Source of the DNA: Ulota crispa | Taxonomy: Eukaryota > Streptophyta > Bryopsida > Orthotrichales > Orthotrichaceae | Length of the DNA: 64,000 nucleotides | NCBI GenBank assembly: GCA_963920765.1 | Contig: OY987250.1 | Span: forward strand, 3,720,001-3,784,000 | Direction of reading: 5' to 3' | In this document: piece by piece, positions 9,037 through 39,100 of the stretch | Layout of the letters: every line of letters starts with the position of its first letter | Numbering within the stretch: position 1 is the first letter of the stretch | Made by a program: the position numbers and the translations under genes | The notes under the pieces: generated by a model | What the model saw: only the letters and a program-made list of their open reading frames with translations | What the model was told of the DNA's origin: nothing | The model's database searches: none

Positions 9037-10476
9037 TTGACATGAACCCTTGCTGCCGACTCCACTCACCTGCTGCCTCAAACCCTGAGCCCGTCGACGT
9101 CTGGCTCAGCCGGTGCCTCAAATCCCAACCTCGTCAATATTTGCTCAACTATTGTCTCAAACCGTAGAGGTGGTGCCGTAAACCCTTGTTGAGCAATGCT
9201 CTTCATGCCATGCGCGCTATCTGCTCAGCCATCATCTTGGCCTTGCTCACAGACCACCTTTTCACCGTCCCTCACACCTGCACAGCCGCTAGACTCATGC
9301 TGGGCTTGGCCTTTGAAATTAGGTTTGCTTTGTTGACATTAGGTTTGCTCTATTGGGTATATGACAAGAAAAGAGGTTTAGGGTGCACAAGACTTAAAAA
9401 TCTCAAACCTTTTGGGCTTGGTAACTTACCTTGTTTGTTTACTGGAATTTTGAGCCAATTTTGCTTTAAAATAGACCCTTGTTCTAATTTGTTAGTTTGT
9501 CTTGGCTCAAATTTCAACAACGCTAGCATGCAAGCCTCGAGCGGCGTTCTTGAAATCCATGAGCAGGGAGCCTTAACTCACAATTTGAGTGACACATTTG
9601 ACATTTTCCATGTATGATTAATAATGTTTTTCCTTTGGGAGTGGAATTTGTTGTAAAAAAAGATTGAGAACCTATTACCAAGGATTAGGGGTTGGACCCA
9701 AGACCATGGAAAACTCTAGATTGAGGGTAAATGACTTGGTTTAGGGGGACTTAGGGTCCAGTCAAGCGTACAACTACTTTGGTTTAGGGTTCTACACTGT
9801 CAAGAAATATTTAAAGGAGTTAGGGAACGGGTTAATCTATATAGTGAGGAAATGGAATTGACATGTGCAGCTCCAAAACAATTTAAGGGTTAGGGTATTC
9901 CAATACATTGTTGAAGGGGTAGTTCATGGGTTTAGGGTATAGGGTTTAGGGGTATTTGAAACAGAGATAATAAGGGTTCATGTTAGGATTTAGGATTTAG
10001 GGTGGCAAATACAGAACATTTAAATGAAGAGATACATACAAGCAAATATAGTTGACAGACACACGAGATAGTGGACACCTCAAAGTTATATTGAATATTG
10101 CAATGCCAAAAAGGCATACAATTCAAGATTTAGGGGTGTCAACAAAGAAGTAGATGTGCAATTCAGAGTTCATGCAAAAATCCTAGCGCCTGTGATGCTA
10201 ATAGGAGAGAAAATGCAAACTAACGGAAATTCTTTGTTACAAAATACCTAATACATATATTATCCTTAAACTTATTGCAGTACAAGATGCTACAATATGT
10301 AGAAATTCCTTTGAATTAATTAGCGTTGACAACATTCTAATAATCTAAGGGTCTATGGTCATCTATTTTGTGATCTTGATGATCCTTGCCTATATGAGTA
10401 GAATTTTAATCTCTGAGAAGCTGAAGGTAGGGGCATGAATAAATTTATCCTTCTGAATATCCATCCTGCATACATA
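9037..10476. other. No gene seen; degenerate telomere-like motifs
   Basis: A 143-codon open frame at 9186-9617 has no recognisable domain or coding bias and is not called. Between about 9690 and 10010 the sequence holds many scattered GTTTAGGG/TTAGGG-like words, for example GGTATAGGGTTTAGGGG near 9936. This resembles decayed interstitial plant telomere repeats. The rest is AT-rich. Confidence 0.4.
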
Positions 10477-12110
10477 TCAAAAAAGATAATAAAGATGCTT
10501 GCAATTTACGTATTGATGTTGACCTCCAATAGAAGAAATAGCCATATTCAAATAATCCGAACAAGTACATGACAAAAAGTTGCCAACAGTAATCTTGTAC
10601 ACATTTCTTTGCTGCTCAGATCCCTTTTCAAGGGATACAATTGCACCTAAACTTGGCACAGGCAGCAACATCACTCCAAGTATTATGTTTGTAGCACTCC
10701 CCCATTTATTACATTGCTTAGTTGTGAGGACATTCGTGATACGGCGCACAGAACAACTCTGCCTCTTTGTTAGGAATGAGTCTAGATTAGAGGGAGTCAC
10801 TTTGTTATACAAAGTGCATTCAAAGGTAGCTAAGATCCCAAACAATTGACGTGGAGATAATGTTGGTTTCTCTTGTAACAAAAACCACCGTGTTGCAACT
10901 AAAATGATTCTTCACATGTAAGGTTTGTACCTGATAGGACCGGCCAAACCTCTAGAACCATCGGCCAATCAATGACCCAATTCTATTTATTGCCTTTCAC
11001 ACAATGCTGGATGTTATTAGCACAAAACCAAAACTGTGTCATAACTTCATTCTGGGAGTGGTAATCTAATTTTCTTCCATGGTATGTTGGGGCAGAAGTA
11101 CCCTTTGATCCTTTTGCTATCTTTGCAATGCACTTGACCTTTGTAATGAATTGGTGTGCATGGCACTTCACACTTGACTTAGATTTTAGCCGTGCAATGT
11201 GCCACTTGGAGGTGTTGCAGTCACTTTCGTGAGGGACTGCTACATAGGATGATCCTTGAACAGTTGGCAAAGCACTTGGTCCTCCTTGAACATCTATAGC
11301 AGGTGTAGTTGATCTTCTCTTCACTTGTGGTTTGGAGAAATTGACCTTATATGGACGATGGGAGTCTCCTTCATCTCCAATAGGAGTACCTGGTTTTCTT
11401 TTGGAACTACCAAAAACCTCTTCACCCTCTAAATGCGGAATGTGGTTCCCAAAATTCTCAGCTCCTGGCAAATTGTTTAATGCATCTGCAATTTTCTTGG
11501 GATCACTACTTTGCATAGCAGCCTTAAGTCTCAATTCATCCATATTTGGACCAGATCCAAGAGCCCAACCTTGTAAGTACGCTTTGAAATTTGTCATCTG
11601 CTGCCACGCTTTGATGTTGTTGTTGCATGTGACTTCAAACAAATTTTTCCCCCAATTTCCCAACATTTGCAGCCACTTGTTGTGTACAATTTCTAACAAA
11701 TTATAGGTAGGCATACTTGCCAACTCATTTAAGCTCAAGTTTTGCAAATGAACACCCAAAAAAAATATTCAATGATCATACATCTCACGTGGCCCAAAAA
11801 ATGAAATCACATTTCATAAGTACTGAAGCTACTGGAGAATATTGAGTCAATGTAAATATTATGGTCACAAGAACATTAAAAAAGAAAGCATATAGTTCCT
11901 CTACATTCCTATTATTTGTCAACAATCACTAAAGCCATGTAAATAGTTCTGTTCAAAGAATATCAATCAACTGAGTAAATATCACTTTGTGAAGAACATC
12001 TAGTCCAGTTGCTGATGATATATAAAGGTACAAATGCTACACAACCATGTGACTCCAAGATGGATTCTCATTGAAACCAGATTATGTTAACAGTTACAGA
12101 AGGAGCAACT

Positions 12111-12134
12111 AGCACCTTTGGCCACAAAGGTGCT
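12111..12134. repeat. AGCACCTTTGG hairpin in the MULE-like gene intron
   Basis: A perfect 10-bp inverted repeat AGCACCTTTG / CAAAGGTGCT with a 4-nt loop. The same hairpin recurs at 12511 and four times at 20.8-21.2 kb. Confidence 0.7.
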
Positions 12135-12510
12135 TTGACAAGGACACAACACCGACACGTAATCATGACCACAAAACCAGTAATTTTTTAAAAATGAACT
12201 TTTGGTAGGGCTCTACATTAGCTACCCACATAAGGAAAGGTTAGGAGGTCGTCAAACCTCTTTGAGAAGGTACTTTCAGTGATAAGAGTATTACTACCAA
12301 GTTTTGTATCATGCGCCGTCCTGTGGATTAAAATAATGGAGCTTGATAATATCACAGATGCAATAATATGGAAAACCAGTTTTTGAATAAAAGTTGTGGA
12401 TAAATAAAGGGTATTCTAACTTACAATGAATTCCCAAAAAATCAAAAATTCTAGCAAAAGCCTGCAACCTTTAAAAAATACTAAAAAAGAAATATGTTGG
12501 CAGGCCGTAG

Positions 12511-12534
12511 AGCACCTTTGGAGACGAAGGTGCT
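12511..12534. repeat. Second AGCACCTTTGG hairpin in the same intron
   Basis: AGCACCTTTG / CGAAGGTGCT with a 4-nt loop and one mismatch. It is the same motif as at 12111-12134. Confidence 0.65.
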
Positions 12535-14985
12535 CCGATTGAGAGTCCAGACTAAAAAAAAAACTAAATTTTCTCAAAAAAACAGTAGTGAAACCAAAAA
12601 ATAAACCATTTTGGACCTAAAAATATTCAGTATGCAGGTGTTAAAAGTTTGTTATGTATTCATTATGAAACCTTAAAATTAAGCTCAACCAATGAAAAAT
12701 TCCTCTACCAAAAGAACTATATCTATTAAAAAAGGATGACCAAAATTAGCAAGAATTGAAAACGTCTAAAGAACAATAAGTACCAGAAACACAAATCTAA
12801 GAGTGAAGTAATGTACATGCATACATACCATTTACAAGGGGCCTCCCCATTGCCAATACCGAAAGTGCTAGAATGCCAACCAGTGCCCTAGATGCAATAA
12901 AGCATCCTTTGATGCAGCTCCGAATGATAACCACCATGAACAAATAGCAAGGTAGCGTGAGTTTGCATCATCCATTGTCTTGGCACCCTTATACTTCTTG
13001 CACAACTTCATATGCTGCTATTGAAATGTTTCTTTGATATACTTTTGTATATGCTTCACCATAGAAGTGCTCCAATGAAGAAGGCACGTCCTCTCCTTAT
13101 TATGCATGACTTTGTCCAAGTTTCCAGACCTGAATACAATATGCACAGCTTTCCAATTAACCATAGCACTATCTGCCATAAACCCCTTGAAGTTTGGTCG
13201 GTCAATCCCAAATTGAGCCATCACTGCACACAATGACCTCCAGAACTGCACTTGGATTTTGGTATTCTCCGATTGCATATCACAAGTAGCAATAGTCATC
13301 ACCTTTTTATAATCTGTGTCATATATGACATGCCATAGTTGTCCAGTCTAGTAGGCGTTTCACATGATCAAACATGATCCATTCCAGCTGCAAATCACCC
13401 CCAACTTGCATCCTCTTCACTAGATCAACTCTACTGCTAGAACCCTCAGTTAACATCTTAAATGAATATACCTTCTTCTTTCCTTGACCCGGAAAGACGT
13501 TGTCATGTATAAACTCAAACAAAGACAATCTTTTCATGGTCATGATGTTATCAATAACACCTCTTTGGTTATGTGACCTCAATGATGAGATCACATTCCA
13601 AATGTTGGAGCTACTAAGGTACTTGAATCTATTCATTATGTCGTTCCTACCATTTGCATCAAGCATTGATTTGTCGCCGTTGCCACTATGGTATAAGTGA
13701 GTAGTTAGGAAGTGTTCAACAGCTGCCAAAGCAATAGCTAAATTGGTTGCTTTAGGAGTTCTTGCTACTTCTGCAGCTAAGAGATTCTAAATTTGTTTTG
13801 TAGAGTCTCTATACAACCTTTAGCCAGAGGATGACTGTGGCATCCTAAAGGTATAGCTGCCCTTGTCATACTATTACTGTCACTGTAAACATGGTATATC
13901 CGGGCGGAGCATAAATTCACGCTGGTAGGAGATTGTTTGCAGACCATACAAACAATTGTACAATCTTTAGGCGGTTCAGTTCCAATTGCAAAAGCAAAAG
14001 TTGTGCTCCCAAACTACTCTGTCTCATTCCAATGGGTGGCCCTCTCTAAGTAATTATAGTCATGGTTGTCACGTGCAAGATGACCAACACAAATAGCCTT
14101 CCAAAACTTCAAAATATTCTCATTGTGTATATTGGTAGTTACCAACTTACACCAAAAGTGACCGTCATACCGTTTGTCCATGCCTTCCAAATTCCTTGCA
14201 GCTGTCGCAAGTGCACTAGATTGGCATGGAGGGAGTTCAAGGATCACGTCTCCATCAGATGCGAGAGGAAGGTAATCAACGCGGTGATGGCTAACTGACA
14301 AATAATCAAGCAAAGACAACTCGTTCCTACTCCGGTGCATGACTGATAATGTCCTTGGGTAATCTGTTATGCTTAGTTGATTAATAGATGATGGATAAAC
14401 AGGAGGGCGTGAACTTCTAGAAGCTGTTCCACTTCTTGGCACACTCATTTGCTCACGCGGACGAACACCCATACTGTGATTCTCGCTCAACGATGGTATC
14501 ACTCTAATACATTTACCCTTTAGTGACGCGTCTTTGTTTGATCCACTTGAAAATTCTAGGATTGGACTCAGATTCTCTACTTTTACGATTCTAAGAGGGA
14601 ACGTAATAAGTGTATGGTGTTTGATCAAATCAATAGGAATAACAACAGGTGAAATTAGAATGTCTAGCATGTTGACACTAGACATGCTCGAGTGATGATG
14701 CGCTCTAGGATTTGATGTAGTGAGATTCTAAAATGGAAGACCATAAACCCGGAATGAACCAACGTATAGATTCCAAAAATTGTCGGCAACGTCTATAGAT
14801 TTCACAACCAAAATGCATTGGACCAAATTCCCTTCCTTTGAACTTCTCTCCTCCTCAATATAAACCGACAACTTAGTGAAACGGAAGCAAACATGCAAGA
14901 GATCATTGGATACTTTAGTGTGACCCTTGCTGTTTAAGGGAAGAACTAAAGAGACTTCATTCCCACTTGCACAAACAAAAGCCAT

Positions 14986-16986
14986 GGCAACATGGATAGA
15001 AGGCAGTAGAATTGCAGCAAGAACTACACCTATGCATAAGAACACCAGGATCACAAGAGAAATGCATAGCAAACAAAGTGGACACTGCAGAAGAAGTGTG
15101 ATGGAAAGGGAATAGAACTAGAGAGAGACAAAGCATTGAAATTCACAGGATGGCTACGGAGCCATTACAAGCCTAGCTTGTACAGGCCAGCAGCAAATGT
15201 AAAGGCTAATAACATTTGTACCTCTACAGAGAATTAATGACAATGTAATGGCGAGGAGGTGGTAGGAAGGTTACTTACAAATGTTGGTGAGTTATTACTT
15301 CAAACTATAATCTAAATCAACAGAATAAATCTCATATTTGATATAGGCCGTCATTGTAGTAGCCGTAAATAGAAAACAAAAATCGATAAATTGAGCAATT
15401 CGGCAATTTTTGGAGCAGTAAACTACAGTAACTAATTCAAACTGATTAGACATGATATTATTACGTTTTGGTGGTTACATAAATAAACTGCGTGGTATGA
15501 ATAGAAATTGACAACTACTAGAGGTGTAAAGAGATCTAACAGCGATACATATCAAATCAGCATTGCAGAGAATAAGGGGTGATGGCATGGTGGACAGTTG
15601 GTCCCTGAAACTGCCGTTAGTTAGTGACCCAAACTCTAAAAGCTGACACTACAAAGCATATTTTAACATGGCATTTTTTTCTGGCGACAAAAACACACTT
15701 GTCACTAGTGGATTTGTTTAAAAATGGAGGGACTGCTTCTGGTTTGTTTAGGATTGGCAGTGTCGTCAGAAAAGAATGCCCTTATTTGAATAAGGTGTTA
15801 ATGCAGAATGAAATCATGGTCTTCACTTGAACCAAAAATGTTTATGTGCAATTCAAGTTACTCATTAGTCAATAATTGGAATATCAAATCAAAATTACAT
15901 GAAGGGATTTTAGGAGGCACATTATGAATTTGATGAATTAACATAAATGAGGTTCAGGTCAGGCATTATCATCTCAGCACATTTCCAAAACCGCTCGCTT
16001 TAATGAATTCATTGTAGTAGCCAAGATGTTGACATCCAGAGCAATCACCACAAATCTCACTAGATCCAATGAGTGGCTTCCAAGTATGACGGTTCAAAAG
16101 GTTTCTTTGTAATGATTGAATTTCTTAGTATTCATAAATACAACCTCAACAACAAAGGGAAGTAGAGGTCCAACAGGAAGATAGTCATTTTTACAGTGCA
16201 TCATGGTAATGCTAGATAATGAAGAGACGCACAAAGCTGCTGTTTAAGATTTTAGAGACTAGCAAGAGAGTACAAGAGGTTTTGTTTTTTGACAAACGAG
16301 AAGGTGAAATAGGGGATGCATTGCAACTTCTAGGAGCAAAAAGTCCAAAGAAATCTTTGATCTGTGACTATTTTACATTAACCTCTAGCTGCTCAAGTTT
16401 GGAGAAACAAAAATTATTGGTATGTTATGCTCATTGTTATTATCTTGCTTGGCTTTGACATTGTTGTAGTACTTTGAATTTGACTAAACGGGTAGTTTGT
16501 TCTTGATTGCTTAAACTTTACATAGCAATGCACATTGACTTGATTAAATTAGAAGTATCACATTCTAAGTCATTTAAAAAAAAAATAGAAACAATAATGT
16601 GTATGTATAGCTTATTACCGGAACTAATTAGAAAGCACTTAAGAACCTACAAAATGAGAAAAATTGTGTATCTAATAAATAATAATAAATTCAACATTTC
16701 AAGTGGATTAAGAAAGACAAAGGGCCTTCAAATACTAGTTAAATTGTACCAATGAATTGTAGGATACTTTTCTTACTATAAACGAGCATGTAAATGAGAC
16801 TCTTGATTTCACAATTCACCAATTTCACGTAAATTGGAAAGACCTCCATGTTGTGATTATATAAGGCTTACAGTACGGTATGTGTCACCAAATAAGAATA
16901 TTTCAAAATAAAACCTCAAATGTATGTAGAGTTTCCATGACATTCCTGGATACAAAGTGAAAAATTCAAACTTATTTTATACTAAC
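14986..16986. other. Mostly gene-free; one exon-like minus segment
   Basis: The only coding-like stretch on the minus strand is about 16125-15975. It reads NRHTWKPLIGSSEICGDC and continues with SGCQHLGYYNEF and KASGFGNVLR, giving a C-x2-C-x2-C cluster, and it ends at a stop. On the plus strand 16219-16430 is weakly exon-like (VQEVLFFDKREGEIGDALQ) and is followed by a GTATGT donor. I recognise neither. They may be displaced exons of the neighbouring transposon genes. Confidence 0.3.
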
Positions 16987-19169
16987 ATGACCATGCGTTG
17001 TTGGATTGAGAGGAGCGCGTCTTAGGAACACGTAGGGTGTCTCACTGCGATTATGCGTCGCTGACTAAAATTGTTGTCAATCTTGATCTTCACTCTTCAA
17101 ATCTTCAATCTTCAGTCTTCCGTTGGCATATCCTGTGACAGGCTCCAGGGATATAAAGGTCAAGGTAGGGATAAGAGCCCACTGGATACGGAACGGGTAG
17201 ATTAGGACAGCAGACACAAACAGCCGTTCGTAAGACGAGATTCTAAAATCAAATTCATGATCTGCTAACCAAAACTCCAAATCGTAAAAACACAGTTGGT
17301 CTTGACCACGTGGGTGATCAATTCCACTTCGTCACCACGACAATAAATGAGATTAAATTTGGTTTAACTCAAACTGTCCGCAACAAGGTTTACAAAACAA
17401 AATAGAAATAAATTGACAAACAAGCTTCCAAAACTGGCAAAGAATAATAAAGCTCCATCCTATACATATTTAAAAAATAAATCTAAAATTTTCCTTTCAA
17501 AGTCTTTATATTTTTAGATCTTTAAGTTTTCTTATATTCAAATCTTCATATCTTCAAGTCGTCATATTTTAATAAAATCAATGAGAAAAATCACAAATAA
17601 CAAGTCCTAAAAAGAGTGCGACCTTCTATTTAGTGCCACAAATGTTTCAAAGATCCAAATGCTAAGTGTAATAGCAATTTGAAAAGCTCTTCTAACTTTT
17701 TAACATCCCTCTACATTTCAACTCAATCTAAGCTATTGTCCAAAAGTTATGCAAGTTCAAAGTAGAGGCTCTTCTTTCTCCTTGCAAACTAAACACTACC
17801 TCTATAAACCTCTATAACTTTTGTTCTACACATCATCCATAAAAACGTAATATCAATTTGAAAAAATGATACCACTGGCTACAATTTGTAAAATTTTCAC
17901 TTCAAAATAAAACTTTGTCCATAAGTTCTAATCAATCAAAGTGTGGGTCTCAATTTTTTAGAGAGCACCTAAACCCCCAATTTCTACACTCTATAACTTT
18001 TTTAATAAGACTCCAAATGAAATGATTAAAGACAAATTAGAAAGCTATGACAACAATATATTAGTTCTAAAATTTTTAGAAGAAAATTTCATAATTTTCA
18101 AAACTTGTAGCTCTTCAAAGTTTTGGCCTTCTCTTAACAAAAATGCAGCCACCTTCAATCCTTCACACCTCTATAACTTTCTCTTCCAAGCTTTAAATCT
18201 TGGTTTTAAAGACATTCTAGAGAGCTAAGACTAAAATGAACACTCTCTCTAAACCTTGTTGCAAAATAATATGCAGATTATAAGCTATGGCTTGTCAAAG
18301 TCTCAACCTTTTTTCAAAGTTTGGCTTTTTGATTTCAAAATTCAAATACTCATAACTTTTGCATCACAACTCTAAATCAAACTCATAAACTCATTTTGGA
18401 AAGATAATCACACAAAAAATAACTCTTTCAAACTTCAATTCAAAATCATGTATACACAAAAAGCTCTCTTCCTTTAAAGTTTCGGAATTTCTTCTTTCTT
18501 CTTACCAACACTCATATATTAATTTCTAACATACTAAAGAATCTCTCCTCCTTAATTTTGACCCTATCTAGGGTAGGGAGGTGAGGCACATCAGCCCATG
18601 CTCCTCTCTATCCTAATCTCACTATAGATGCCAAACCCCTTTTCCTTTCATATCTTTCCCATTCACTTTTAAATTCTTAGTATTTTTTATTCAAACAAAG
18701 GCAAAATATATGAGTCTTTCAAAACATCTAGATAAACATATAAAAATGATTAAATTATAAAATAAATACTACTGTAAAATAGTCCCGTGCCCTTGCAAGT
18801 ATATAATAGCGTCAAACGCTTATTTTTAATTGTCAAGTCATGGATTTGGTTGGCTAGTGAAGCGGTTGTTTCTGGCCGCCTGCCGATCTGGATTCAAATT
18901 TCATCAGACTTGTCGAGCGATGATAGCGGCCCACGGCTTGGTAGCTAATGAGGTAGGAAATTAGCCCAGCCAACCCGCTACCTATCCTCCTAAGCTGTGC
19001 ATGTGACAAGACGGCGCAGCGCACTGGAATCGATGGCCGCTGCATTATCACCAAATGGTGGTTCTCACCACAACCATTTTTTTTCCCTTAATTGTTGATT
19101 TATTGAAATCAACACAAATATAAATAAATAATAAGTATCTACATGATGGAGGGATTTCTATCAAGACAA
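16987..19169 (+). repeat. Left arm of a large palindrome
   Basis: From about 17530 to 19169 the sequence is essentially the reverse complement of 23959-25580. Two spurious open frames of 66 and 68 codons are identical in both arms. Further out (16987-17100) similarity persists but is clearly lower. The left arm contains about 430 bp (17100-17530) with no counterpart on the right. The arm is non-coding, AT-rich, and made of loose ~150-bp variations on CTCTATAACTTTT. The inner boundary is sharp, at TCAAGACAA. Confidence 0.9.
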
Positions 19170-19609
19170 TGGTAGTGTAAATCTTAAGTTGGTTCTTTGT
19201 AAACATATAATTAAAAGAAGTGCAATCAAGCTAAGTAGTCAAAAGGAGAGATAAGGAGCTGCGGTTGATAGTCCCTTTCCCAAGAAGCTCATGCTTGAAG
19301 TATTTAATCTACAAGACACTAGAAATTAATTAGAATGCATAGTTAGAAATCCCTTAAACTAGAGCAATTGCTTCTACAATTGGATTACTACCTATGCTTT
19401 AAGTTGAACAAGGTCATTACAAAGAACAAAAGCTTTGTTAAGTTGAAGAGAAAATCTGAACAAGTGCCAGAAGCAGCACTCAAATAAACTCATGACACTG
19501 AGCAACAGTCACAGCAATGTATGTATATTGAACAGGAATATTAGAAATGCACATGCAAGAATGGAAGAATGTTATCAGCATTTCTACCTAAACAATAGTC
19601 ATCAAACAG

Positions 19610-22600
19610 CCTACTTTGAGCCCTCAAAATTGTTGAAATTATCTCCATTCTTGAAAGTATTTGCTCCCTTTACATATGGTAAAAAGCCTTGGTCCTAAAT
19701 CTTCCGACGCCATCTTTCAATATACTTAGAAAAGGTCTCTACTTCCAATGATACAGTCATATCAATTTTTGTATTGTCTTTCTTGAGCACATCGTTGTAA
19801 TAAGCAACCGCAGCATCTTTGATCTACATTAATTGATGAGAATACACATAAGAAAGGGACAATTTAATTCACAAAAAGAGTGCATTGATAATATAGACCA
19901 AACAAGTCAAAGAAAACAATAGCTGCAAATTGAATGATTAAACTCACCCTTAAGTACCAAACGCACTTTCCTCAAAAAGATTTTAGTGGATCCTCAATAG
20001 CAAGTGGAGGCGGAAAGTGCCTGGCTTCACGAGAGGGCAAGGATGAATTCCACCACTTTAAGAATTTAGTTTTGTGGTAGCCAGTAGTATGACACGTTGC
20101 CACAATCTGAAGTTTTTCTAAACTCGTCTCCACCTCTTTGTTTGAGCTATAGTGCTTTTCAATCTGAAATGCAAAAACCTATATGTTAGAAAAGGATACA
20201 AGTAGTATAGCTAAACCGGAATACAGAAGGATGCAGCAAAATTTTACCACCTGAATGAAGTCCATCTTGTTGGAAGGATTAGCAATAGACAAGAGCTTCA
20301 TCATTTTTGGTACAAGGCTTCGTTCCTTTTCTTTTGCACTTGCTTGCATGGCATCTACCATGGCTTTGGAGGTTCTATCTTCTAAAAGCATGGCCTCATT
20401 GCATTTCCGCAAAGCACAATCCGAAGCAATAGAAACATCTTGCTGCCATAAGCCCAAAATAAAACACCAACTAATTATGGAACTGGAAGTATAATAATAA
20501 GCCTATATATATCACATTTAGGGTAACACCAACTAAACATCTGCCACACGTTATACATTGAATAATCAAAAAAATAAGCAAAAATCATATCAAATATAAA
20601 AGCAGAGCACATGGCGAGGAATGCCTAATCAATCACAGCAATTCACTACCAATGGTGGCAGTGGAAATATGGGCAATTGACCACCCTCATCTTTTACTAT
20701 GTAACTTAGCAAACCAAAAATTAGAGGTAGCAATGCGAAGTAGAATACAGTGCAACTCTGAAAACCAGATCTCCTTGGGCATAATCCCAACTACCATATC
20801 CCGTTACATCCTTGTTAAGATAACACAATGGTTGCTGTGTCTGCCATGAGTACCTTAGGGGCCGAAGGTGCTCGAAGGGGATGCAATTGCCGCGCCACAG
20901 TTTCTCTTGTTTGAAGGTGGAGGTGTGGCAATTGCATCCCCCTTGAGCACCTTTGGGGGCAAAGGTGCTCGCAGGGGATGCAGTCGCCGCGCCACATCCC
21001 CATGCGACTCACAATGCTTGTTGTTGTGGCGCTGCGACTACATCCCCGCGAGCACCTTTGGAGTCAAAGGTGCTTGCGCGGATGCAGTTGCCGCGCTATT
21101 CTTATGTATCATATGGATTTCAGTTTGTGTTTGATATGGTTACTGCATCCCTTGAGAGCTCTTTTGCCTCTAAAGGTGCTCACAGGGGATTCAGTTGTCA
21201 TGCAACTTCATTTTGGTATCGGAAATTAGTACGTCCGATGTGCACTTCCTTGACAACAAAGTGCAGAGACCCGCGCACAATTATTCTTGAAACTTGAGCT
21301 TATATTGGAAAGAGTGATATGATATTCACACAAAAAATAAATGATGCCAAGACCTCTACAAGAGTTGTGTACCAAGTCTTGTTAGTCAATGTCTTCACAT
21401 ATTGTTTCATCTCCCCAGGTCGCAAAAGCTCCTTGAACTTTTCAATGGGTAAGAGGCTGTATTTCTGTACCCTATATAATGTGTGCTCAAGATTGGTCTT
21501 GACATGGGAGTCTTCAATGTGCCTGCATATAAATTGCATCAATATTCATGAGCAAGATTGTATCAGCTCAAACTTATTCAATAGTCACAAGCAATGTTTC
21601 ATTTTGCAATTCACCAGTTGTTATGAATACGTTGTTTACTTGTTGATATCATGCATCACTTCCATAAGAACCTCATTGCGCCCCTTTGTTTCTAGTATTA
21701 TGCTGTCCACCAATATATACTAAGAGGGATCAAGCAGATGATGGGTTTGGATGTGGTTCATCCATGCTATGCGCTTATGGTTCCCGTCACGTACAAATAG
21801 TTTCTAGGTCTGTAAATACAACAGTTCTGGATGATAAGCAATTGCTTGGAGGAATGAGTTGTTTTCTTCATGCCATAGTTTCTCCCATATTCTCATCTCT
21901 TCTTTACTAAAATTTGCTATCTCTCCCTCCTCATTTGTTGTTGATAAGTACAACATGGGCGATCCATCGCAATAACCGTGTGCAAACTTGTGTTCCAGCA
22001 ATAGTAAGTCACACGAAAGTGTTGGCCTCACCATAGGCAACGGCACAAGTCGGATGAGTGGCACTCTCAGTCGGTATAGGAACTTTGGTTTCATTTGCAA
22101 GCTCATAATCGTTTTCATTGCATCTACTTTTTGCAGCATGCGCAAGTCATGCTCCAAAAGTTTTGCATCCTCTTTGTTGTTTGTATTAGCAGGCATATCC
22201 TCATCACCTCCCTAGACAATGTCAGGTTGGATACTACTGTCAGTCCCTGCTGTCTTTGTAATTGACTGTGCCTAGTTGCCTAGATTCACCGAAGACATCT
22301 GCAAAATCCATTGTAGCAAATATTAGCAAATGAGGTCTTCCAAAGTAACTGATACTTGGTTTTAGCACTCACAATTTCAAGTCTCTGCTAGTGTGTAAGT
22401 GTTTTAATAGAATATTTTGAATTCATGCAATGACTAATCTCTTCCATGTTGGCCAAACTCGTGGATTTGTTGCTTGGGGCTGTTGAAGTGATGCTATCAG
22501 TCCCTTGAATGGTCTCCATAGCTATTGCCATTTCTTGATTGACTGAGTTGAATATATTGTCGTAAGGTGTGCTAGACGAGGATGCGGGTGCAATAAACAC

Positions 22601-23481
22601 TTGCAGTGGTGGGTGCTTCAACTATAAGTACAAAATTCTCACGCTATACAAAATGTAAAGTCCTCAGTAATCGGCACTTTGAATTTGACAAGTTCCAGTT
22701 AGCCATTGTTTATTATATTGTAAGCGGTTGAAACTCACCTCAAAGTCATGATGGATAGCACCATTATTGCCTGCGACTCTGTCGTGACTGATTCAATTGG
22801 TAATTTGTGTCCAATATGTAATTTAGTTTAGGATTTCACAGAAATTATTATAATTTCAATGGGCAAGCACTTCCAATGTGTTATACAATATTTGTATATC
22901 TACTTAATCTAAATAAGTATTAGATGCTTCAACTCATCACAATACTTTCAGAAATTGTTGGGTCACGCTACGGTCAGTCTTCCTCCAACTCTGATGGGGG
23001 AACCACGTTCCTCCTTGATCTCCACGTACCTGCCATTTCAGATGGCATCTTGGGTATTTGCATATATCTTCAAACATTCAGCATTGCTAGACCACTACAA
23101 TGGAATCATGGTATCACTGTAATTAGAATTGCAGCAATTCCACCTTCTACAGCATATCGGATGAAAGTCTCAAACTTCTACAATTTCAACGAATCCAAAT
23201 TTCTAAAGTACGCAAAAATCCTCTAGTAACGTTGCGCTTATGAATGCAAAAGAATGCAATCCGCTTGCAGCAAAAAATCACATCTAAAACACGGCTCTTA
23301 GAAGATTTTCCAATGTTAATCCCAATGATAAGCTACAAACAGAGAATTGTAAACGAAAGAGTAAAGGTGCGTTTTTAAAATTACCATTTTACTTGCAAGC
23401 TGATTTTTTCTTCCTGTATAGACGTTTAGGATTTTCTTCCGATTTGATAAATGAGCTATCTGCGTCGGCAGCGGTGGACAT
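19610..23481 (-). pseudogene. N-terminal half of a ParB-like/methyltransferase-type TE gene
   Basis: Multi-exon gene in the palindrome loop. Exon-like blocks are 23481-23390 (MSTAADADSSF), a stop-broken block at about 23130-22970, about 22790-22740 ending at a GTGAGT donor, 22621-22390 (Ser/Thr-rich), 22298-21645, 21526-21300, 20445-20252 (ends MDFIQ before GT), 20162-19948 (GYHKTKFLKWWN, acceptor TTTCAG, donor GTGAGT) and 19823-19690 (IKDAAVAYYNDVLKK). The 22298 exon carries KLFVRDGNHKRIAW near 21803-21765. DGNH[KR] resembles the ParB/sulfiredoxin-fold DGxHR motif, so a ParB-like domain is suggested but unproven. TAG stops lie at 22274, 22214, 21806 and 21722. When flipped, the gene runs straight into the exons at 25.7-27.9 kb. 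Confidence 0.5.
20848..21181. repeat. GC-rich array of four GAGCACCTTTGG hairpins
   Basis: Hairpins GAGCACCTTTGG...CAAAGGTGCTC occur at 20848-20873 (degenerate left arm), 20945-20970, 21050-21075 and 21154-21181 (degenerate). Each is followed by a block like AGGGGATGCAATTGCCGCG. Between successive hairpins these blocks recur in inverted form (TGTGGCAATTGCATCCCC), so the array also folds into longer alternating hairpins. It lies in an intron of the loop gene and is much richer in GC than its surroundings. Confidence 0.75.
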
Positions 23482-23958
23482 TTCTACTGCACAACAAAAA
23501 AATTGTCTACTGTACAATTAATTTGCGTATGTAATAGTGCCTCAACATTCGGACATAAGCAACTTCTACTCTCAAAACTTAAAGCACGGCAAACAACAAA
23601 TGAAACGGCAGTTTCACAAGAGAGAGGATTTCAAAGGGAGCAAAGTAGGTTGCTGATGGCGTTGTGCAAGAGTGTAGAGAGGTGGTCACCTATCTCTTAT
23701 AGCCGCCAAACTAGCCAAACCAAAACTCTGCAGCCAAACAAACCCTAGAAGCAATATGCTCTGCTATAGCACTACACATCAGGCTTCTCTACTTTATAAA
23801 TGTACTGCTTAGAGTTGACGTTGGCGATTAGTACGTTCCGGCTGGGCTCGGCTCAGTATGGAAGTTTGGAATCCTTGTCATCTTTATTTCCACAATAGGG
23901 AACAATAATTGGCAGCACCGTTCACAAACTACAACTTTCCTTGCCAATATAAGCCACG

Positions 23959-25708
23959 TTGTCTTGATAGAAATCCCTCCATCATGTAGATACTTATTAT
24001 TTATTTATATTTGTGTTGATTTCAATAAATCAACAATTAAGGGAAAAAAAATGGTTGTGGTGAGAACCACCATTTGGTGATAATGCAGCGGCCATCGATT
24101 CCAGTGCGCTGCGCCGTCTTGTCACATGCACAGCTTAGGAGGATAGGTAGCGGGTTGGCTGGGCTAATTTCCTACCTCATTAGCTACCAAGCCGTGGGCC
24201 GCTATCATCGCTCGACAAGTCTGATGAAATTTGAATCCAGATCGGCAGGCGGCCAGAAACAACCGCTTCACTAGCCAACCAAATCCATGACTTGACAATT
24301 AAAAATAAGCGTTTGACGCTATTATATACTTGCAAGGGCACGGGACTATTTTACAGTAGTATTTATTTTATAATTTAATCATTTTTATATGTTTATCTAG
24401 ATGTTTTGAAAGACTCATATATTTTGCCTTTGTTTGAATAAAAAATACTAAGAATTTAAAAGTGAATGGGAAAGATATGAAAGGAAAAGGGGTTTGGCAT
24501 CTATAGTGAGATTAGGATAGAGAGGAGCATGGGCTGATGTGCCTCACCTCCCTACCCTAGATAGGGTCAAAATTAAGGAGGAGAGATTCTTTAGTATGTT
24601 AGAAATTAATATATGAGTGTTGGTAAGAAGAAAGAAGAAATTCCGAAACTTTAAAGGAAGAGAGCTTTTTGTGTATACATGATTTTGAATTGAAGTTTGA
24701 AAGAGTTATTTTTTGTGTGATTATCTTTCCAAAATGAGTTTATGAGTTTGATTTAGAGTTGTGATGCAAAAGTTATGAGTATTTGAATTTTGAAATCAAA
24801 AAGCCAAACTTTGAAAAAAGGTTGAGACTTTGACAAGCCATAGCTTATAATCTGCATATTATTTTGCAACAAGGTTTAGAGAGAGTGTTCATTTTAGTCT
24901 TAGCTCTCTAGAATGTCTTTAAAACCAAGATTTAAAGCTTGGAAGAGAAAGTTATAGAGGTGTGAAGGATTGAAGGTGGCTGCATTTTTGTTAAGAGAAG
25001 GCCAAAACTTTGAAGAGCTACAAGTTTTGAAAATTATGAAATTTTCTTCTAAAAATTTTAGAACTAATATATTGTTGTCATAGCTTTCTAATTTGTCTTT
25101 AATCATTTCATTTGGAGTCTTATTAAAAAAGTTATAGAGTGTAGAAATTGGGGGTTTAGGTGCTCTCTAAAAAATTGAGACCCACACTTTGATTGATTAG
25201 AACTTATGGACAAAGTTTTATTTTGAAGTGAAAATTTTACAAATTGTAGCCAGTGGTATCATTTTTTCAAATTGATATTACGTTTTTATGGATGATGTGT
25301 AGAACAAAAGTTATAGAGGTTTATAGAGGTAGTGTTTAGTTTGCAAGGAGAAAGAAGAGCCTCTACTTTGAACTTGCATAACTTTTGGACAATAGCTTAG
25401 ATTGAGTTGAAATGTAGAGGGATGTTAAAAAGTTAGAAGAGCTTTTCAAATTGCTATTACACTTAGCATTTGGATCTTTGAAACATTTGTGGCACTAAAT
25501 AGAAGGTCGCACTCTTTTTAGGACTTGTTATTTGTGATTTTTCTCATTGATTTTATTAAAATATGACGACTTGAAGATATGAAAACGAAAGATCTGAATA
25601 GTGAAGATCAAGACCAAAGACAATTTTAGTCAGCAATGCATGATTGCAGCAAGTCATCCTGCGTGTTTCCAAGGCGCGCTTCTCTCAATCCGCCACCGCT
25701 TAGTTAGA
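23959..25708 (-). repeat. Right arm of the large palindrome
   Basis: Inverted copy of the left arm. It lacks ~430 bp between two CTTCA-rich words, where the left arm has unique DNA. Its outer edge lies directly against a plus-strand exon (LDIDGWFLDCK from about 25710). The loop between the arms is about 4.8 kb (19170-23958) and carries a minus-strand gene. Confidence 0.9.
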
Positions 25709-27905
25709 TATTGACGGTTGGTTCTTAGATTGCAAGATAGAGTTCACTCACCCTTCTAAAGTGGCTCTGCGTAAATTACTAGAAGAAAAAGGGGTGATTA
25801 ATATGGATGTGCACAAGTTTGCTGGTATGGATAATGAAATAAGGACTAAAGCTATTAAAAAGCGAGCCACTGCTGATACAATGAAGGGGCTGAAGGAAGC
25901 TAACATAATTAAGCAAAAGGCTTTGAAGGAGGTCAAAAAGAAAAAGAAAGCGGTTGAGCAGGCTGCCAAGAAGGAGAAAGGCCTTAAAAGTCAAGGTAAA
26001 ACTTCAAAGGCACCTAGTGCTGCAACTCTTGATCCCTCGCTCCCTTCACCGTCTTCTGGATCCCACATGCAAACAAGCTCCTAGTAGGCACTGAAGAGGA
26101 AGAGCATTGTCAGCAAGCTCACTAATGAGGAGGAAAACATCCTCCAATGTTTCAATATTGTCCCGTCAAACGCTATTGCTGATGCAGACGTCTAGGAGAT
26201 GATTGTGAACATGTCTATGTGCAATGTGGTGGACGATATGGAACTAGTTGGTTCCAACAATTGTAGTGAAGTGTTAGACTTTCTAAAAAAGGTGTAGTTG
26301 TATTCTTTCTATTTTTTCTTCAACTATCACTTTAATGTCTACTTTATGTTTCAATGTCTTAATGTTGTTTCAAGTTGGGAATTTTCTCAAATATGTAAGG
26401 TTGCATGTGCAAGTTGTTGGAACCAAAGAGCAGCATTTAGATGGGGAGTTGGACGCCAACACTGTTGTTGATTTGGTACTTCTAGATTGCCCAAAGAATC
26501 TTCCAGTACCAATGATCTCAACGTCTGATACAGATATTCCTTCGTGGAACTTGGACAAGACTCATGAGCTTATCAATGCAGCATTTGCTTTCGCCAAAGA
26601 ACATGTGCATGATGATAGGGTGTTGATAGTTTTTCATTCATTTAGCACAGACTCCAAGTCTTATATTGCAAGACTTTGCAAAATTTATGATATGAATGTG
26701 AGGAAAGAGTAGCAAAGAACTAACAGACTACATGTGACTTTTGCTATTAACCCATCAAAGACTGTGAGTCTTTTCTTTCTTGAACCCTTCTTCACAATTT
26801 TTGGTTCTTCTGAAATTAGTAGTCTCTCCAACTTCTAACGCCTTTTTTTTGTTCATTTCAGACATAGAAATTTGGAGTTACGTTGTTGGTGAGAACCTTA
26901 GGAAAGGAAGGCAATCAAACTTTTTTTTCATAACACAAAGTCAATGCAAAAGATGGGTTCTGATATTGGGCAGGATGACACGCTTCTTAATCTTGTTGGT
27001 TTGAACAATTTGGCAAAACATGGCTCCATCCCATGGAGAGGACCGCGACAGAAGGGAGCCCGTTTTTATCAACTGCTTATTGAAGCCGCTTCAATGTATG
27101 AGGATGTGGTCATTGATTGTACTGCGTCCACTGCCTAGTGTTTACTTCAATCCAGCGTTTTTCATGCCATCCGTGATGTTAGTTTGATTCTTAATTTCTA
27201 GGATTTCAGTTTGTCTTTTTAGGATCGTCCATTCTGCAATTCAATCCTCAGTTTGTCGCTACATCCATTTAGTCATTTTGATTTTTCTTTTTGATGCTCT
27301 GGGTTATTGTTTTCAGGAGCGTCCATTGCAGCTTGCCATGCTAGTGGGCGCAACATCCTTGCAATGGAGGCGCAAGATGCTCTTTTTGAGGCTATGCTTT
27401 GGCTAATGATTTGGGTTTCACATGGTGCACCTCCTCCGATTGAGGCACATCCACTTTCCATGATACCTATATTTCAAGATCCAGATGCAGCTGTTATAGT
27501 TCCAATGGAGTTCGTTCGCAAAACTAAAGCTAAAGCTAGTAAATAAGTGTTTTTTGTAACCTATGTCTTTTTTTGGTATTCATTTTTATTGGACTTGCTC
27601 TAACATTAATGATGATCTGTATGTTTGATTTGTTCAACAAAATGGAGATGAAGCGTAGGAAGAAGTCCAGAGGCAAGACCATTTCTGATGTATGGGTTAG
27701 CCCAGATAAGACATACTTCTATCCATCTTATGCACAAAAAATGGGAAACGCGTTTGAAAAATTTGGTATAAAGAAGTCTTTTGTGAAACCTCCTAAGTTT
27801 TCTAAGGATATATTAGAGTTTATGGATGTAATGGCAACTAAAGAACGTACAGTATCTTTGGACCATAGTTCAAGTGACTCTAGTGCTGAGACTAGTGGGA
27901 CTTAG
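25709..27905 (+). pseudogene. Beta-class DNA amino-methyltransferase-like C-terminal half
   Basis: Exons run in the plus direction just outside the palindrome. 25709-26292 reads DIDGWFLDCKIEF, then a Lys-rich coiled coil around KKKKKAVEQAAKK, with TAG at 26082 and 26193. 26370-26763 holds NTVVDLVLLDCPKN (26470-26500), at the place of the motif IV NPPY-type tetrad, with TAG at 26710. 26863-27126 holds HGSIPWRGPRQKGARFYQ and VVIDCTAST. 27319-27543 holds GASIAACHASGRNILAME. 27650-27905 is a basic/Ser-rich tail. The order IV, then the S/T-rich D.F.GSG-like motif I, then GR..L..E, matches beta-class N4C/N6A methyltransferases. DCPK for DPPY and DCTASTGAS for D.FAGSGTT suggest an inactive or very divergent enzyme. 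The donor after DCTAST appears destroyed. Confidence 0.5.
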
Positions 27906-28467
27906 CATTTTGGACTTTTCATACATGAAGAGTAGTTACCTACCTACTTCGATTTATTTCTTTTATTGAGGTTTGTATGTCTTTGTTTTATTTTATGAAC
28001 ACCCTATCTTTTTGCTATTCTCTTATTTCATTATTTAGATATTTGGTAAACTTTTTTATGTACAGGTGCATGTTTATAACATGTTTCTAATCCCTAAACT
28101 TTATACCCTAAACCACCTTATTTCCACGGTCATAGGTACCCGCATCTAATTTTCAACAAAAAAATTTCCCACTCATAGGCTCATAGGCTCATGCTCACAG
28201 GCTCGCTTGCTAGCAACCCTAGCTCAAATTTTGACTAGAAATTGGTTAAAAATTACAAAGCCGCTTGAAGTCCTTCTCTTTAGTATAATTAAGTGTTCAA
28301 AAGTAGCTCTTTTATACTTATAAGAGTAAAAATCAACCTTTTAGAATGTCTCAAGGGAGTTTTTATAATTCTTGAATCAAAAACAAAACTATATACTACA
28401 AAAAAAGCATATCAAAGCAATAATTTTATGTTGGTTTGGACCACTTCATTTCAACAAGGGAACTAAA
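27906..28467. other. No gene seen
   Basis: AT-rich DNA with a short CCCTAAA-like word cluster near 28092-28115. Nothing else was recognised. Confidence 0.4.
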
Positions 28468-28937
28468 ATGTGCACACTCGGGATTTGAGATATGCACACT
28501 CGGGGTTTGAGATATGCACACTCGGGGTTTGAGATATGCACACTCGGGGTTTGAGATATGCACACTCGGGGTTTGAGATATGCACACCAAGGGGGATAAA
28601 TTTTTAATATTTACCATCAACAAGTTGAATTCAAATAACTTGAATTCAAATTTGGATTTAAAGCCCTTGATTTTGTCTAGAAGTATAAACGGGGTTACAA
28701 TTGAACAATTCCTAGTGGAAAAGCTTAGCTAGGGAACAAATTATTACTTTTATTTTTGTTTATAAAAAAAAACTAAACTTTTCCATTGGAAGTTGTTTAA
28801 TTATAATCTCCTTTCTAAATGAAGGTTTATAAATCCAAATTTGATTTCAATTTCCCAAATTCAACTTGTTGATGGTAAAAATCTATAATTTACCCCCCCT
28901 CTTGGTGTGCATATCTCAAACTTGGGTGTGCACATGT
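28468..28937. mobile_element. Foldback MITE with TIR-derived minisatellite
   Basis: Left side reads ATGTGCACACTCGGG, then GAGATATGCACACCAAG and TTTACCATCAACAAGTTGAA. The right side, reverse-complemented, reads ATGTGCACACCCAAG, GAGATATGCACACCAAG and TTTACCATCAACAAGTTGAA. Imperfect pairing extends about 200 bp on each side, giving a near-palindromic non-coding element. In the left arm the terminal motif has expanded into a tandem array. Confidence 0.75.
28471..28580 (+). repeat. 22-bp minisatellite, five copies
   Basis: Five near-perfect units of TGCACACTCGGGGTTTGAGA plus TA, followed by a diverged sixth TGCACACCAAG. The first unit differs by one base. The unit corresponds to the terminal repeat of the surrounding foldback element, which has only one such unit on its right side. 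Confidence 0.9.
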
Positions 28938-36126: not shown

Positions 36127-39100
36127 TTGTTTCTTGGTTAAATGAATGTAGACGCTTGGATCTGGGTTTATAGGTTTCAAGATCCGCTAATTGCAAAACT
36201 TTGTAATAAGGAAGGGAGACCACAACTTTTTGGATATGGGAATGACACTTGTCATTCGTTTATCAGTAGCTTTTCAAAAAAGGACTTTTAAGAGTTCTTC
36301 AATGATTAGCTATTACGGGCAGATTTGAGATTATTGCCTCGGGTGATGGGTAGTTGCAAGAAACACTTCACAATTTTGTCTCAAACACCCTTAACACTAG
36401 CAGTACTAAGTAGTACTATGAGCTTTTGAAATAACTTTTTTTTAAATAAAATAAAATGTGGATAATTTGTAAAGCACTTAAAATAGCTTATTTGTGAAAA
36501 TTCAGATTTAAAAAATATATATTCTAAAAGTTATGCACAAAAATAGAGGGACAAATATTACCCACAAAAAGACAATTTTCTTTTTGCTTTTTAGAAAATA
36601 GTAAAATCATTCAAAAAAATAAAATAAAAAATGGCCATTTTTGCTGTATTCAAGATATTTGTTTGGTGGAATTGCTTTTTTGGAGAAAATTGTATTCTTT
36701 CTCTAATCATTGACCAAAGGATGCCCACTTTGAGAGCATGTGGAAGGCAAAAATTTCACAATTTCCTAAAGCCCTTATATGGTTCCATGTAATGCTCTAT
36801 GATAAACCCTACAACCCTAATTTGTGGCATGAGATTTGCTGTTTTGGACCCAAAATAGTACTAAAAACCGCCAAAATGGCCAAGGTAGACACCTATTTGG
36901 GGCTTTTAAAAAATAGTAAAATAACTTAAAACAAACCACAAAAATTACGGAAGGTATGTCAATATGACATGTAACTTCCTCTGAAATTTCAGCTCAAAAG
37001 AACTTTCTAAGAAAAAGTTACAAGCCAAAAAGCACCCACAAGAGGTGAGGGGGACAAAAATAGTACAAGTGTTTTTTGCAATCCCCCTGATTTTGTATTC
37101 TCGATTCTCCTAATGCAAACAAAGTTTCAAAATTGTACTGTAGAAATATGAATTGATCACTTAGTGTGCTAGGTGTAATGAGAATGTAAGTGTTAGAGAA
37201 GAGAGAGAGAGAAGTAACCACTGGATCCTGTCTGATCCAGTTTCTGGAGTGAATTCAAGGTGGTTGAAAATTGTGTGTATTGAAGGGTAGTTCTTGCTTG
37301 GGTTTATGATCCGGGGACCCATGTGAAGAATAACCTTCTTTAAACTAGGTGCAATCCAAATAGCAATCCCAATGCATGCTAGTTGACAGCTGAAGAGGTT
37401 CCACTACAATCAGGAGTGATCGTAAACAAAAAAAATATGGATCCTCTAGTTATCTGATTACCAACTTAGCAAAGGGGACTGGGTCATGAAGGGTCTATTG
37501 TTATAGTAATTTGAGGGTGTAGGGGTTTCCTGCGTGACCTATTAGTTTGGATTTGTTTCCGGACTAGTTGTGAGGGAGTACTTGCATCTTGTTGTGTTTG
37601 TGTTCTTTGTGTTGATTTTGTGTTCAGTGACACTTCAATCACTCTAATCTCTCAAAGGGTAGGATTTCACGCAGCCTTCTTTAAGCTCAAATAGCGGAAT
37701 CCTCCGATATAGAGGCTAAACTTCTATAACTTGTTAATTATTGTGTAATCGGATTCAGAAGAGGTACAGGGTTTGGACACTCCTTGGATTCTCGATTGTT
37801 TGTGTGAACAGGAGAACATAATTAGGAGTCCAATCTGTTGATTAGAAAATTTCCAGTTATTTTTCCTGTGTGTGTGTGTTTGCAACTTACAAACATGATT
37901 TCTTCATCTTGTTATAGCTAATCTTTAGGATCTACAAACTAAATCTTTGTGGAACAAAAACAATTCATCTTCTTGGTGTTTTAAGTCACTTTTAATGCCA
38001 ACAGGAGGATAAGTACTTTCTTGTGCTACGACATTTGTTTAGAAAGTCAGAAAATTCCCTTATCATGGAAAAGTTCATAGGTTGATTTCCGATAGTTTCA
38101 AATTTCATTCGGCCCATTTCTCCATCTACAAGTGCACATTTGGCTAAATTTCCTACAAATAAAATTGTAACTTGGCTGATTTTCTAAAGCCATGTTTTTA
38201 TGGTTGGAAGCAAATCCGCCAACTTTCATATTTTTTGGCAATCCTCAAAAAAAGTTGGCTAACTTGTAACTAAGACTCAGTTCTCCACAGACATTGCTTG
38301 CCACCATGTCCCTATTGCTCAAATCAAATCTCTTGCAACGCTTGTACAACAATTTGATTTTTATCATCATTATTCTATTGACATGGACAACATGAATGCC
38401 TTCATAATTGTAGTTTGTAGCAAGACCAAAAAATTAGATCCAATACCTCAAAACAAGGCTTTAAATAAGGAGAGGTGATATATGGGGAGCTGAAGTGTTC
38501 ATGGGTTAATTTGGACACTTTTAATTTTGTTACTGCGTTGTGCGCACAGTTTGGAAAGTTGATTGAGCTCAATCAGCCAATATCTGACATTCTCTTGGGC
38601 TTGTGAGTGCTCAAATCTCCCCCTTAAGAAGTAAGCGCAAGCACAACTAGGTTCTAATAGAAATTGGGAAATGAGCTAAACGTGAAAGAATAGCAAGAGG
38701 GTGGGTTTCCAAGCAATGGATCTTCATAATGAGTTTACAACACACAATGATGAACAAAATAGGGTGTTGCTTAAGAAATTGAACATCTAAATGAAGGGGA
38801 TTAATCAAAATAAGGGGCGCAAGAGATCATACCTCGTCATGGGGTCCCACATATTCTACCGCTTAATCGTGAATGGCCTCCATTTGCCCTTGAATGCAAT
38901 GCTTGGGGATGTAAAAAAATTTGCATGTTACTCTATTCTATGGACAAATAATCACAACACATTAAAAGGGTTGGTGATCAACCCCCATAAACAGAGCGGC
39001 TTACCCTCTAGGTGCGTGACAAATAATCACAACATAACCCATGTACCGGGAAATGACTAGGGGTGGAGTTACTCACCTTTAAGTGACCCAAAATAGTATT

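Follow-up and report, generated by a model that had tools for sequence, protein, structure and literature searches.

A multi-copy DNA transposon of Ulota crispa bearing a degenerate methyltransferase-like accessory gene, split in one copy by an inversion between solo long terminal repeats

The element and its genes

The 64,000-nucleotide stretch of the Ulota crispa (Bryopsida) genome considered here (assembly GCA_963920765.1, contig OY987250.1, positions 3,720,001 to 3,784,000; hereafter the window) contains an old copy of a large, multi-copy DNA transposon bearing two divergent genes. One of these is transposase-like; the other, an accessory gene, encodes a fused protein in which a block with a ParB-like motif comes first, then a middle region, a stretch resembling a coiled coil and, last, a degenerate N4/N6-type DNA-methyltransferase domain. 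In this copy, a flip of the sequence between two retrotransposon remnants has cut the methyltransferase-like gene in two. The element is laid out as follows (window coordinates throughout).

9515-28221: whole DNA transposon copy, with both genes and two long terminal repeat (LTR) insertions; defined by homology to a copy on C1 across 9503-28229, by target duplications and by its ends
9505-9514: left target-site duplication, GCTCAAATTT
28222-28231: right target-site duplication, GCTCAAATTT
9515-9546, plus strand: left end, a degenerate terminal repeat (11 left-end matches genome-wide, window included)
28190-28221, minus strand: right end (41 genome matches, window included)
10477-13786, minus strand: transposase-like gene blocks, from open reading frames (ORFs), with 128 genome matches to the block 13018-13347

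The same 10-bp target duplication thus borders the element on both sides. Target duplications of 8-11 bp were present in four of the five copies examined at both ends, including those on C1 (GGCCAAAT), C6 (ATCCATTCTT) and C8 (TTAAATTCTCA); none was seen in the fifth copy, on C2. Terminal repeats are short and imperfect, with GCTAGC-N2-GC-N-AGCCT common to both element ends, and 8 of the 41 right-end matches span barely beyond the last ~50 bases, at 88-96% identity. The initial annotation, made from the letters of the window, had taken the accessory gene to be transposon-borne; the target duplications bear this out.

Across the genome searched (274.8 Mb, 157 contigs), each exon probe led to more than 100 loci, with at least 130 matches to the ParB-like block and at least 117 to the methyltransferase-like block. 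Merging hits less than 600 bp apart reduced the methyltransferase, ParB and transposase-like rows from 117, 130 and 128 to 115, 125 and 121. The copies used for alignments, motifs and palindromes are a non-random sample: the best-scoring loci together with the far-group loci L037-L040, taken from the hit lists. Duplicate identifiers were excluded from the counts of substitution-rate ratios (nonsynonymous to synonymous, dN/dS), motifs and stops, namely L001, L009 and L021 (the window) and L015, L016 and L019 (L034, L033 and L035, respectively). In 51 loci where all three blocks were located by eye in the match lists, the identities of the blocks to the window covary (Spearman 0.79-0.84; 0.40-0.48 for the nearer 31 loci), which argues that the genes travelled together.

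An inversion between two solo LTRs

The middle of the accessory gene lies in a loop between two inverted arms.

19169-23959, minus strand: inverted loop, in opposite orientation in the C1 copy
16999-19168, minus strand: left solo LTR, 2170 bp, long type
23960-25695, plus strand: right solo LTR, 1736 bp, short type, within a coding exon
16995-16998: LTR target duplication 1, GCGT half (mate ACGT at 23956-23959)
23956-23959: LTR target duplication 1, ACGT mate
19169-19172: LTR target duplication 2, CCAT half, minus strand (mate CCGC at 25696-25699)
25696-25699: LTR target duplication 2, CCGC mate

The arms (17545-19169 and 23959-25583) are 1625 nt long and 100% complementary. In the best paralogue (C1:33744005-33759477, 83-90% identical), the loop stands the opposite way round and neither arm is present: the C1 copy matches, in succession, window 9503-15896 and 16628-16998, the loop read backwards from 23958 to 19172, and 25699-28229. 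The initial annotation had read the loop as inverted on account of minus-strand coding blocks at 19170-23958, including DGNHK (21788-21774); those blocks are there, and its forecast that reversing the loop would make all blocks collinear agrees with the order found in the C1 paralogue and elsewhere in the genome. A methyltransferase hit lies within 12 kb of a ParB-block hit in 63 pairs, 62 of which have the methyltransferase downstream on the same strand; for the transposase-like hit, expected upstream on the opposite strand, the corresponding figure is 82 of 83 ParB-block hits. The window is the sole exception in both cases. (No methyltransferase hit falls within 12 kb of 62 of the 125 merged ParB-block hits, and no transposase-like hit near 42 of the 125.) Extending the range to 30 kb leaves 68 of 71 collinear with the methyltransferase and 86 of 87 with the transposase-like hit, and adds two methyltransferase exceptions, 26-29 kb away. 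As a separate observation, the loop (19172-23958) is more diverged from the C1 copy (80.6-86.4% identity) than are the element flanks (88.6-89.4%).

Each arm is a segment of a longer LTR (16999-19168 on the left, 23960-25695 on the right), and the two are solo LTRs of one retrotransposon family, with each 4-bp target duplication split between them. The GCGT on the outer side of the left LTR has its mate, ACGT, on the inner side of the right LTR, and the empty site in C1 reads GCGT; the CCAT on the inner side of the left LTR is paired with CCGC on the outer side of the right. Both LTRs have TG..CA ends, a match to a two-LTR element and a short target duplication. That two-LTR element, on C2, has LTRs of 2161 bp that are 99.95% identical to each other and flanked by ACGT on both sides, and the window arms match it at ~85%; the right LTR lacks ~0.4 kb near its 3' end, as do L041 and L045. 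The related retrotransposon at C2:28564k-28576k (L042, L043), with its 99.95% identical LTRs, belongs to a young family with many paired copies 8.4 kb apart. The arms were also considered as terminal repeats of a foldback transposon, which is ruled out by their being LTRs of a family with paired copies at that spacing.

LTR-LTR recombination explains the inversion, in keeping with the proposal that recombination between two inverted repeats was responsible. Two points weigh against it. The second target duplication is poor (CCAT/CCGC, two of four bases matching), and an assembly misjoin within a 1.6-kb identical repeat would give the same picture, swapped target duplications included. Such a misjoin, with reads joined wrongly through a repeat made or found identical, gains some credit from the LTRs themselves, which agree at every one of the first 1624 bases, counted from the 5' end, although their 3' tails are only 79% identical over 111 bp, a difference of ~21%, and from the lack of any second inverted copy among the 63. 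The contrast between identity and differing tails points to homogenisation between two LTR types, in the organism or in assembly, and is a sign either of a very recent event or of the assembly. On the other hand, arms truly identical in the organism would need gene conversion or recombination anyway, and a modern long read would normally span an arm of 1.6 kb. We regard an assembly error as unlikely; the element anatomy and the inversion between LTRs are, taken together, highly probable, with residual doubt mainly from a misjoin. As it stands, the locus is a well-resolved example of two solo LTRs with the sequence between them inverted and both target duplications still readable.

One gene, cut within an exon and probably already decayed by then

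The coding blocks of the accessory gene, in order of reading, are these.

21639-22211, minus strand: ParB-like coding block, two in-frame TAG stops, DGNHK at 21788-21774
21327-21500, minus strand: exon 3 (KTNLEHTLY..)
20245-20439, minus strand: coding block M1
19975-20163, minus strand: WWN block
19614-19823, minus strand: coding block MID, one in-frame stop
19169-19305, minus strand: 5' portion of the exon into which the right LTR is inserted; one in-frame stop
25696-26081, plus strand: 3' part of the LTR-cut exon, lysine-rich, coiled-coil-like (by eye)
26413-26763, plus strand: methyltransferase-like exon, motif IV DCPK in place of DPPY, with a splice-acceptor-like site before it in copies
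26868-27132, plus strand: methyltransferase-like exon reaching motif I (DCTAST); in the window copy its frame is broken
27316-27417, plus strand: methyltransferase-like exon after motif I (GASIAACHASGRNILAMEA)
27543-27905, plus strand: probable C-terminal exon, with an open frame; the DNA of the region is conserved between copies

Minus-strand coding had been thought to stop near 19.69 kb; it instead reaches the arm, where one exon is cut. Plus-strand coding beyond the right arm, which had also been predicted, begins at 25695 and continues through the methyltransferase-like exons. The peptide of the cut exon reads KIYTT on one side and A-LDIDGWFLDC on the other, and the two sides are contiguous in the C1 paralogue. 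Long open frames span the cut site in other copies (L040, 4570-5262; L037, 5266-5763), and in L036 one alignment, containing a stop, runs through it. The idea of one gene split in two therefore holds, since the right LTR sits inside an exon whose flanks are joined in C1 and crossed by open frames in L037 and L040. That the halves are instead neighbouring genes draws on the far group (L037-L040), where a Met (MNDR/MSGR/MNKR) near the start of the methyltransferase exon makes a second start possible. Against this, the cut lies within a single exon, and in the near group the methyltransferase exon begins without a start codon at an acceptor-like site; a pyrimidine-rich stretch ending in AG precedes this exon in many copies. 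We reject two separate genes as very improbable.

The window copy is a pseudogene. Stops interrupt the ParB-like and MID blocks, the split exon and both methyltransferase blocks, and the second of the methyltransferase exons also has a broken frame. Over 33 loci, with L002 left out as belonging to the window, the stops number 103 (64 TAG, 29 TGA and 10 TAA), 58 of them at W, Q or R columns of the probe, a spectrum that would fit C-to-T decay of methylated DNA. An inversion that killed a live gene was considered and is unlikely: there are stops in five blocks and a frame break, as against LTR arms unchanged over 1624 bases. Because that damage is present while the arms show no difference, the gene was probably already dead before the inversion.

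A methyltransferase-like domain without its catalytic aromatic residue

The methyltransferase relationship proposed in the initial annotation was borne out by hidden Markov model searches with family members. Profile A1 gave only four hits at E <=10 in PDB, namely DpnA (5.7e-5 and 6.5e-5), CcrM (0.0012) and MboIIA (0.33). Six of 10 members matched Pfam N6_N4_Mtase (PF01555) at E <=1, the best at 6.9e-6, although one member scored 15.2 bits, under the curated cut-off of 26.7; DNA methyltransferases in PHROG were matched by up to 9 of 10. One scan of genome contigs found no bacterial source of the domain, and tblastn against phages returned weak partial hits, with none of 107 records covering 80%.

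Motif IV of the N6_N4_Mtase family is [DNS]PP[YFW], and in known enzymes an aromatic residue is needed there. In the alignment to DpnA, DPPYN stands opposite d-v-p-e-n of the family, and the pattern [DNS]PP[YFW] occurs in none of 17 copies, whose fourth residue is E in 10, K in six and D in one, the catalytic aromatic being present in 0 of 17. The leading Asp of motif IV survives in 16 of 17 copies; in motif I, which was readable in 16 copies, 12 have the Asp.

The protein nevertheless remains under selection. From 430 pairs of copies (153 for the ParB-like block, 136 and 75 for two methyltransferase blocks and 66 for the coiled-coil-like block), 146 were usable over the four blocks, the rest being saturated or undefined, and dN/dS was below 0.5 in 139: 59 of 61 and 53 of 57 for the methyltransferase blocks, 23 of 24 for the coiled-coil-like block and 4 of 4 for the ParB-like block, where four pairs amount to little evidence. 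This reading must be tempered, as the pairs share ancestry and are hence non-independent, and the closest pair (window versus C1) gives values from 0.22 to 0.77.

A domain maintained under selection yet lacking its catalytic aromatic suggests, from sequence, binding rather than catalysis. It is also conceivable, if unlikely, that the accessory protein has methyltransferase activity, unchanged or altered, and uses it to mark DNA or RNA of the element itself. The retained Asp residues of motifs IV and I and the slow evolution of the domain would suit such an enzyme, and DNA methyltransferases borne by transposable elements do exist (PMC5890265, in the text excerpted from it); the fourth position of motif IV, without an aromatic in all 17 copies, speaks against it.

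The ParB-like block

The ParB identity given to the N-terminal half fared less well: the motif [VI]C[DN]GNH[RK] is its sole support, and the identity failed every profile test, which counts against that part of our reading. Pfam ParB_N (PF02195) matched none of 17 members at E <=1, and a whole-genome search with PF02195 found no place here, as against matches in 11 of 14 control genomes. Searches of PDB and PHROGs with the block returned chance-level hits to other things only. Alignment to plasmid ParBs by hhalign was non-significant (P 0.17), and a single-sequence structure model, with a mean pLDDT of 34.9, is uninformative on the fold.

There is a nearly even chance that the label reflects a chance motif match and that the N-terminal half is an unrelated domain, as the negative searches and the non-significant profile alignment would have it. 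What keeps the ParB reading alive is the best local alignment (itself non-significant), which sets CDGNHRR against LDGSRRR of plasmid ParB and scores 16.8 versus 13.7-16.3 in five controls, together with the fact that fusions of ParB with DNA methyltransferase are common in bacteria.

The transposase-like gene

By eye, the transposase-like gene has paired Cys/His motifs and conserved Asp residues. Searches of Pfam gave nothing better than E 0.09, and PDB yielded no convincing match. MULE elements have target duplications of ~9 bp, so the 8-11 bp found in four of five copies suit a MULE in length. None of the 71 genome hits to the MULE transposase profile PF10551, however, lies within 5 kb of the 121 merged transposase-like hits, the window's included, and hhalign against three MULE ORFs gave a probability of 0.1% with shallow profiles. 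With target-duplication length alone fitting and no PF10551 hit near the relatives, we do not file the element as a MULE. That this gene matches no Pfam family and none of the 71 MULE hits is a point against our reading of the element.

Palindrome arrays in non-coding parts of both genes

Palindromes recur in the intron after exon 3 and between the transposase-like ORFs.

21029-21096: long palindrome in the intron after exon 3, each arm having 27 of its 32 bases paired
20927-20988: second long palindrome in that intron, each arm having 24 of its 29 bases paired
12111-12134: palindromic core AGCACCTT-N8-AAGGTGCT, between transposase-like ORFs
12511-12534: palindromic core, between transposase-like ORFs

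In 14 copies, the stretches that carry the second gene hold 29 long palindromes, of which 27 lie in the intron after exon 3; 11 copies have them there, nine of the 10 nearer ones and two of the four far ones. The palindrome-bearing introns are those of the window (20927-21096), the C1, C6 and C8 copies, two C10 copies, L033, L034, L036, L038 and L039; arms vary between copies yet remain self-complementary, and the intron is the same in near and far copies. No palindrome was found in the 45 kb of the window outside the element, and none in shuffled sequence (three crude two-base shuffles per copy). A further 66.5 kb of other loci, ~17 kb of which are element copies or flanks (L055, L056, L058-L060), held two, one in the transposase-like half of the C1 element. 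TRF detected no tandem array at the palindromes.

The exact core AGCACCTT-N8-AAGGTGCT occurs four times in the window, with none expected, and two of these sites lie between transposase-like ORFs. L056 has core sites at 3101-3124 and 3502-3525, likewise between ORFs of its transposase-like gene. Genome-wide there are 78 sites, versus one for a reversed control pattern. Among the 50 of the 78 that were listed, which run as far as C5, 31 lie within 10 kb of element hits, and 40 do so once left-end matches are added, the neighbourhoods then making up 1.97% of the genome. The remaining 10 of these 50, with no element hit within 10 kb (C3:21450309-21451873, C5:15062279-15062557, C2:28653808, C4:13556415), may mark unrecognised or internally deleted relatives.

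For palindromes as sites of function, two findings are unfavourable: 3 of 14 copies lack them, and only 10 of 60 loci examined have the exact core, with L036-L040 all without it, from which it follows that the more distant palindromes differ in sequence. A serious alternative, to which we give somewhat less than an even chance, is that the palindromes are not binding sites at all, having been perfected by template switching during replication, or that they serve as hairpin sources of small RNA or as intron structure. Arms that diverge between copies while staying self-complementary are what template switching between arms would give, and L036, L038 and L039 carry palindromes of other sequence though they lack the core. 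Sharing of the core among nearer copies, its placement in non-coding parts of both genes and its count far above that of the control are harder to accommodate in this way.

A possible role for the accessory protein

Element anatomy, inversion and a role for the accessory protein together make what is likely the best overall explanation of the locus; its last part is the most tentative. Two solo LTRs came to lie in the element at a later time, with one placed within an exon, and the intervening piece was turned round when they recombined. The accessory protein, presumably non-catalytic and without base methylation, would bind DNA of the element that encodes it, the likeliest sites being the palindrome arrays in the non-coding parts of the two genes, and the bound protein might help the element to escape silencing or act in trans. 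This would be a mode of action like that of the VANC proteins of VANDAL elements, with a pseudo-enzyme methyltransferase fold in place of theirs. The combination of palindrome binding with an anti-silencing role is offered with reserve, at about one chance in three.

VANDALs are DNA transposons of the Mutator group in Arabidopsis with an extra gene (VANC), family-specific motif arrays and degenerate terminal repeats (excerpted text of PMC10398659). The element described here likewise has an extra gene, motif arrays in non-coding regions and degenerate terminal repeats, and its array is family-specific, with the exact core in nearer copies only. A methyltransferase-fold protein beside element-specific arrays thus resembles the VANC/VANDAL pairing, and we propose the same kind of action without claiming homology. 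There are differences: VANC targets are tandem repeats of short motifs rather than long palindromes, and the same excerpt does not describe VANC as having a methyltransferase fold (PMC10398659).

Other transposable elements offer partial parallels. Fungal DNA transposons with TET/JBP genes and the SET-carrying HarbingerS and MuDR elements also bear genes for epigenetic enzymes, of other folds than the degenerate N4/N6-type domain found here (PMC12730594, in excerpt). DNMT retrotransposons of Symbiodinium and Klebsormidium and Dam-carrying DIRS elements are similar in encoding a DNA methyltransferase, but are retrotransposons with cytosine DNMT or Dam; for KnitGypsy-Dnmt3, purifying selection is reported, with key functional residues conserved (excerpted portions of PMC5890265). 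Among bacterial N6/N4 DNA methyltransferases, DpnA, CcrM and MboIIA are sequence-profile relatives of the C-terminal domain, in which their DPPY is replaced mostly by D-x-P-E/K.

A more elaborate and rather improbable scheme would make this a transposon of a non-Pfam superfamily with its own partition-like system, where a fusion of ParB-like and dead methyltransferase parts reads family-specific, parS-like palindromes in the non-coding parts of the two element genes and protects or mobilises the family. By analogy with VANC targets, the palindromes would then change with the protein between subfamilies.

If the proposed binding role is right, a bacterial-type pseudo-methyltransferase joins the list of anti-silencing and DNA-modifying genes of transposons. 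Few transposons with such genes are known to us. The palindrome core, with 78 exact sites in 275 Mb, supplies a mapped target that makes the binding idea testable. We found no description of such an element in the open-licence papers searched; it may be known in subscription papers, UniProt or Repbase, which lay outside the search.

Other features of the window

A direct repeat array with a 22-nt unit (28446-28609) lies just right of the element end. At 37236-38028 lies a nested repeat, matching (71.5%) a part of the C1 copy, at 7073-7875 in the stretch compared, that the window's own element lacks. Fragments of two other transposases are also present: a DDE_1 fragment at 1729-2382 (Pfam 4.7e-19), which we take to be of pogo/Tigger type, and a Transposase_21 (tnp2) fragment at 48277-48762 (Pfam 1.2e-40), presumably of CACTA type.

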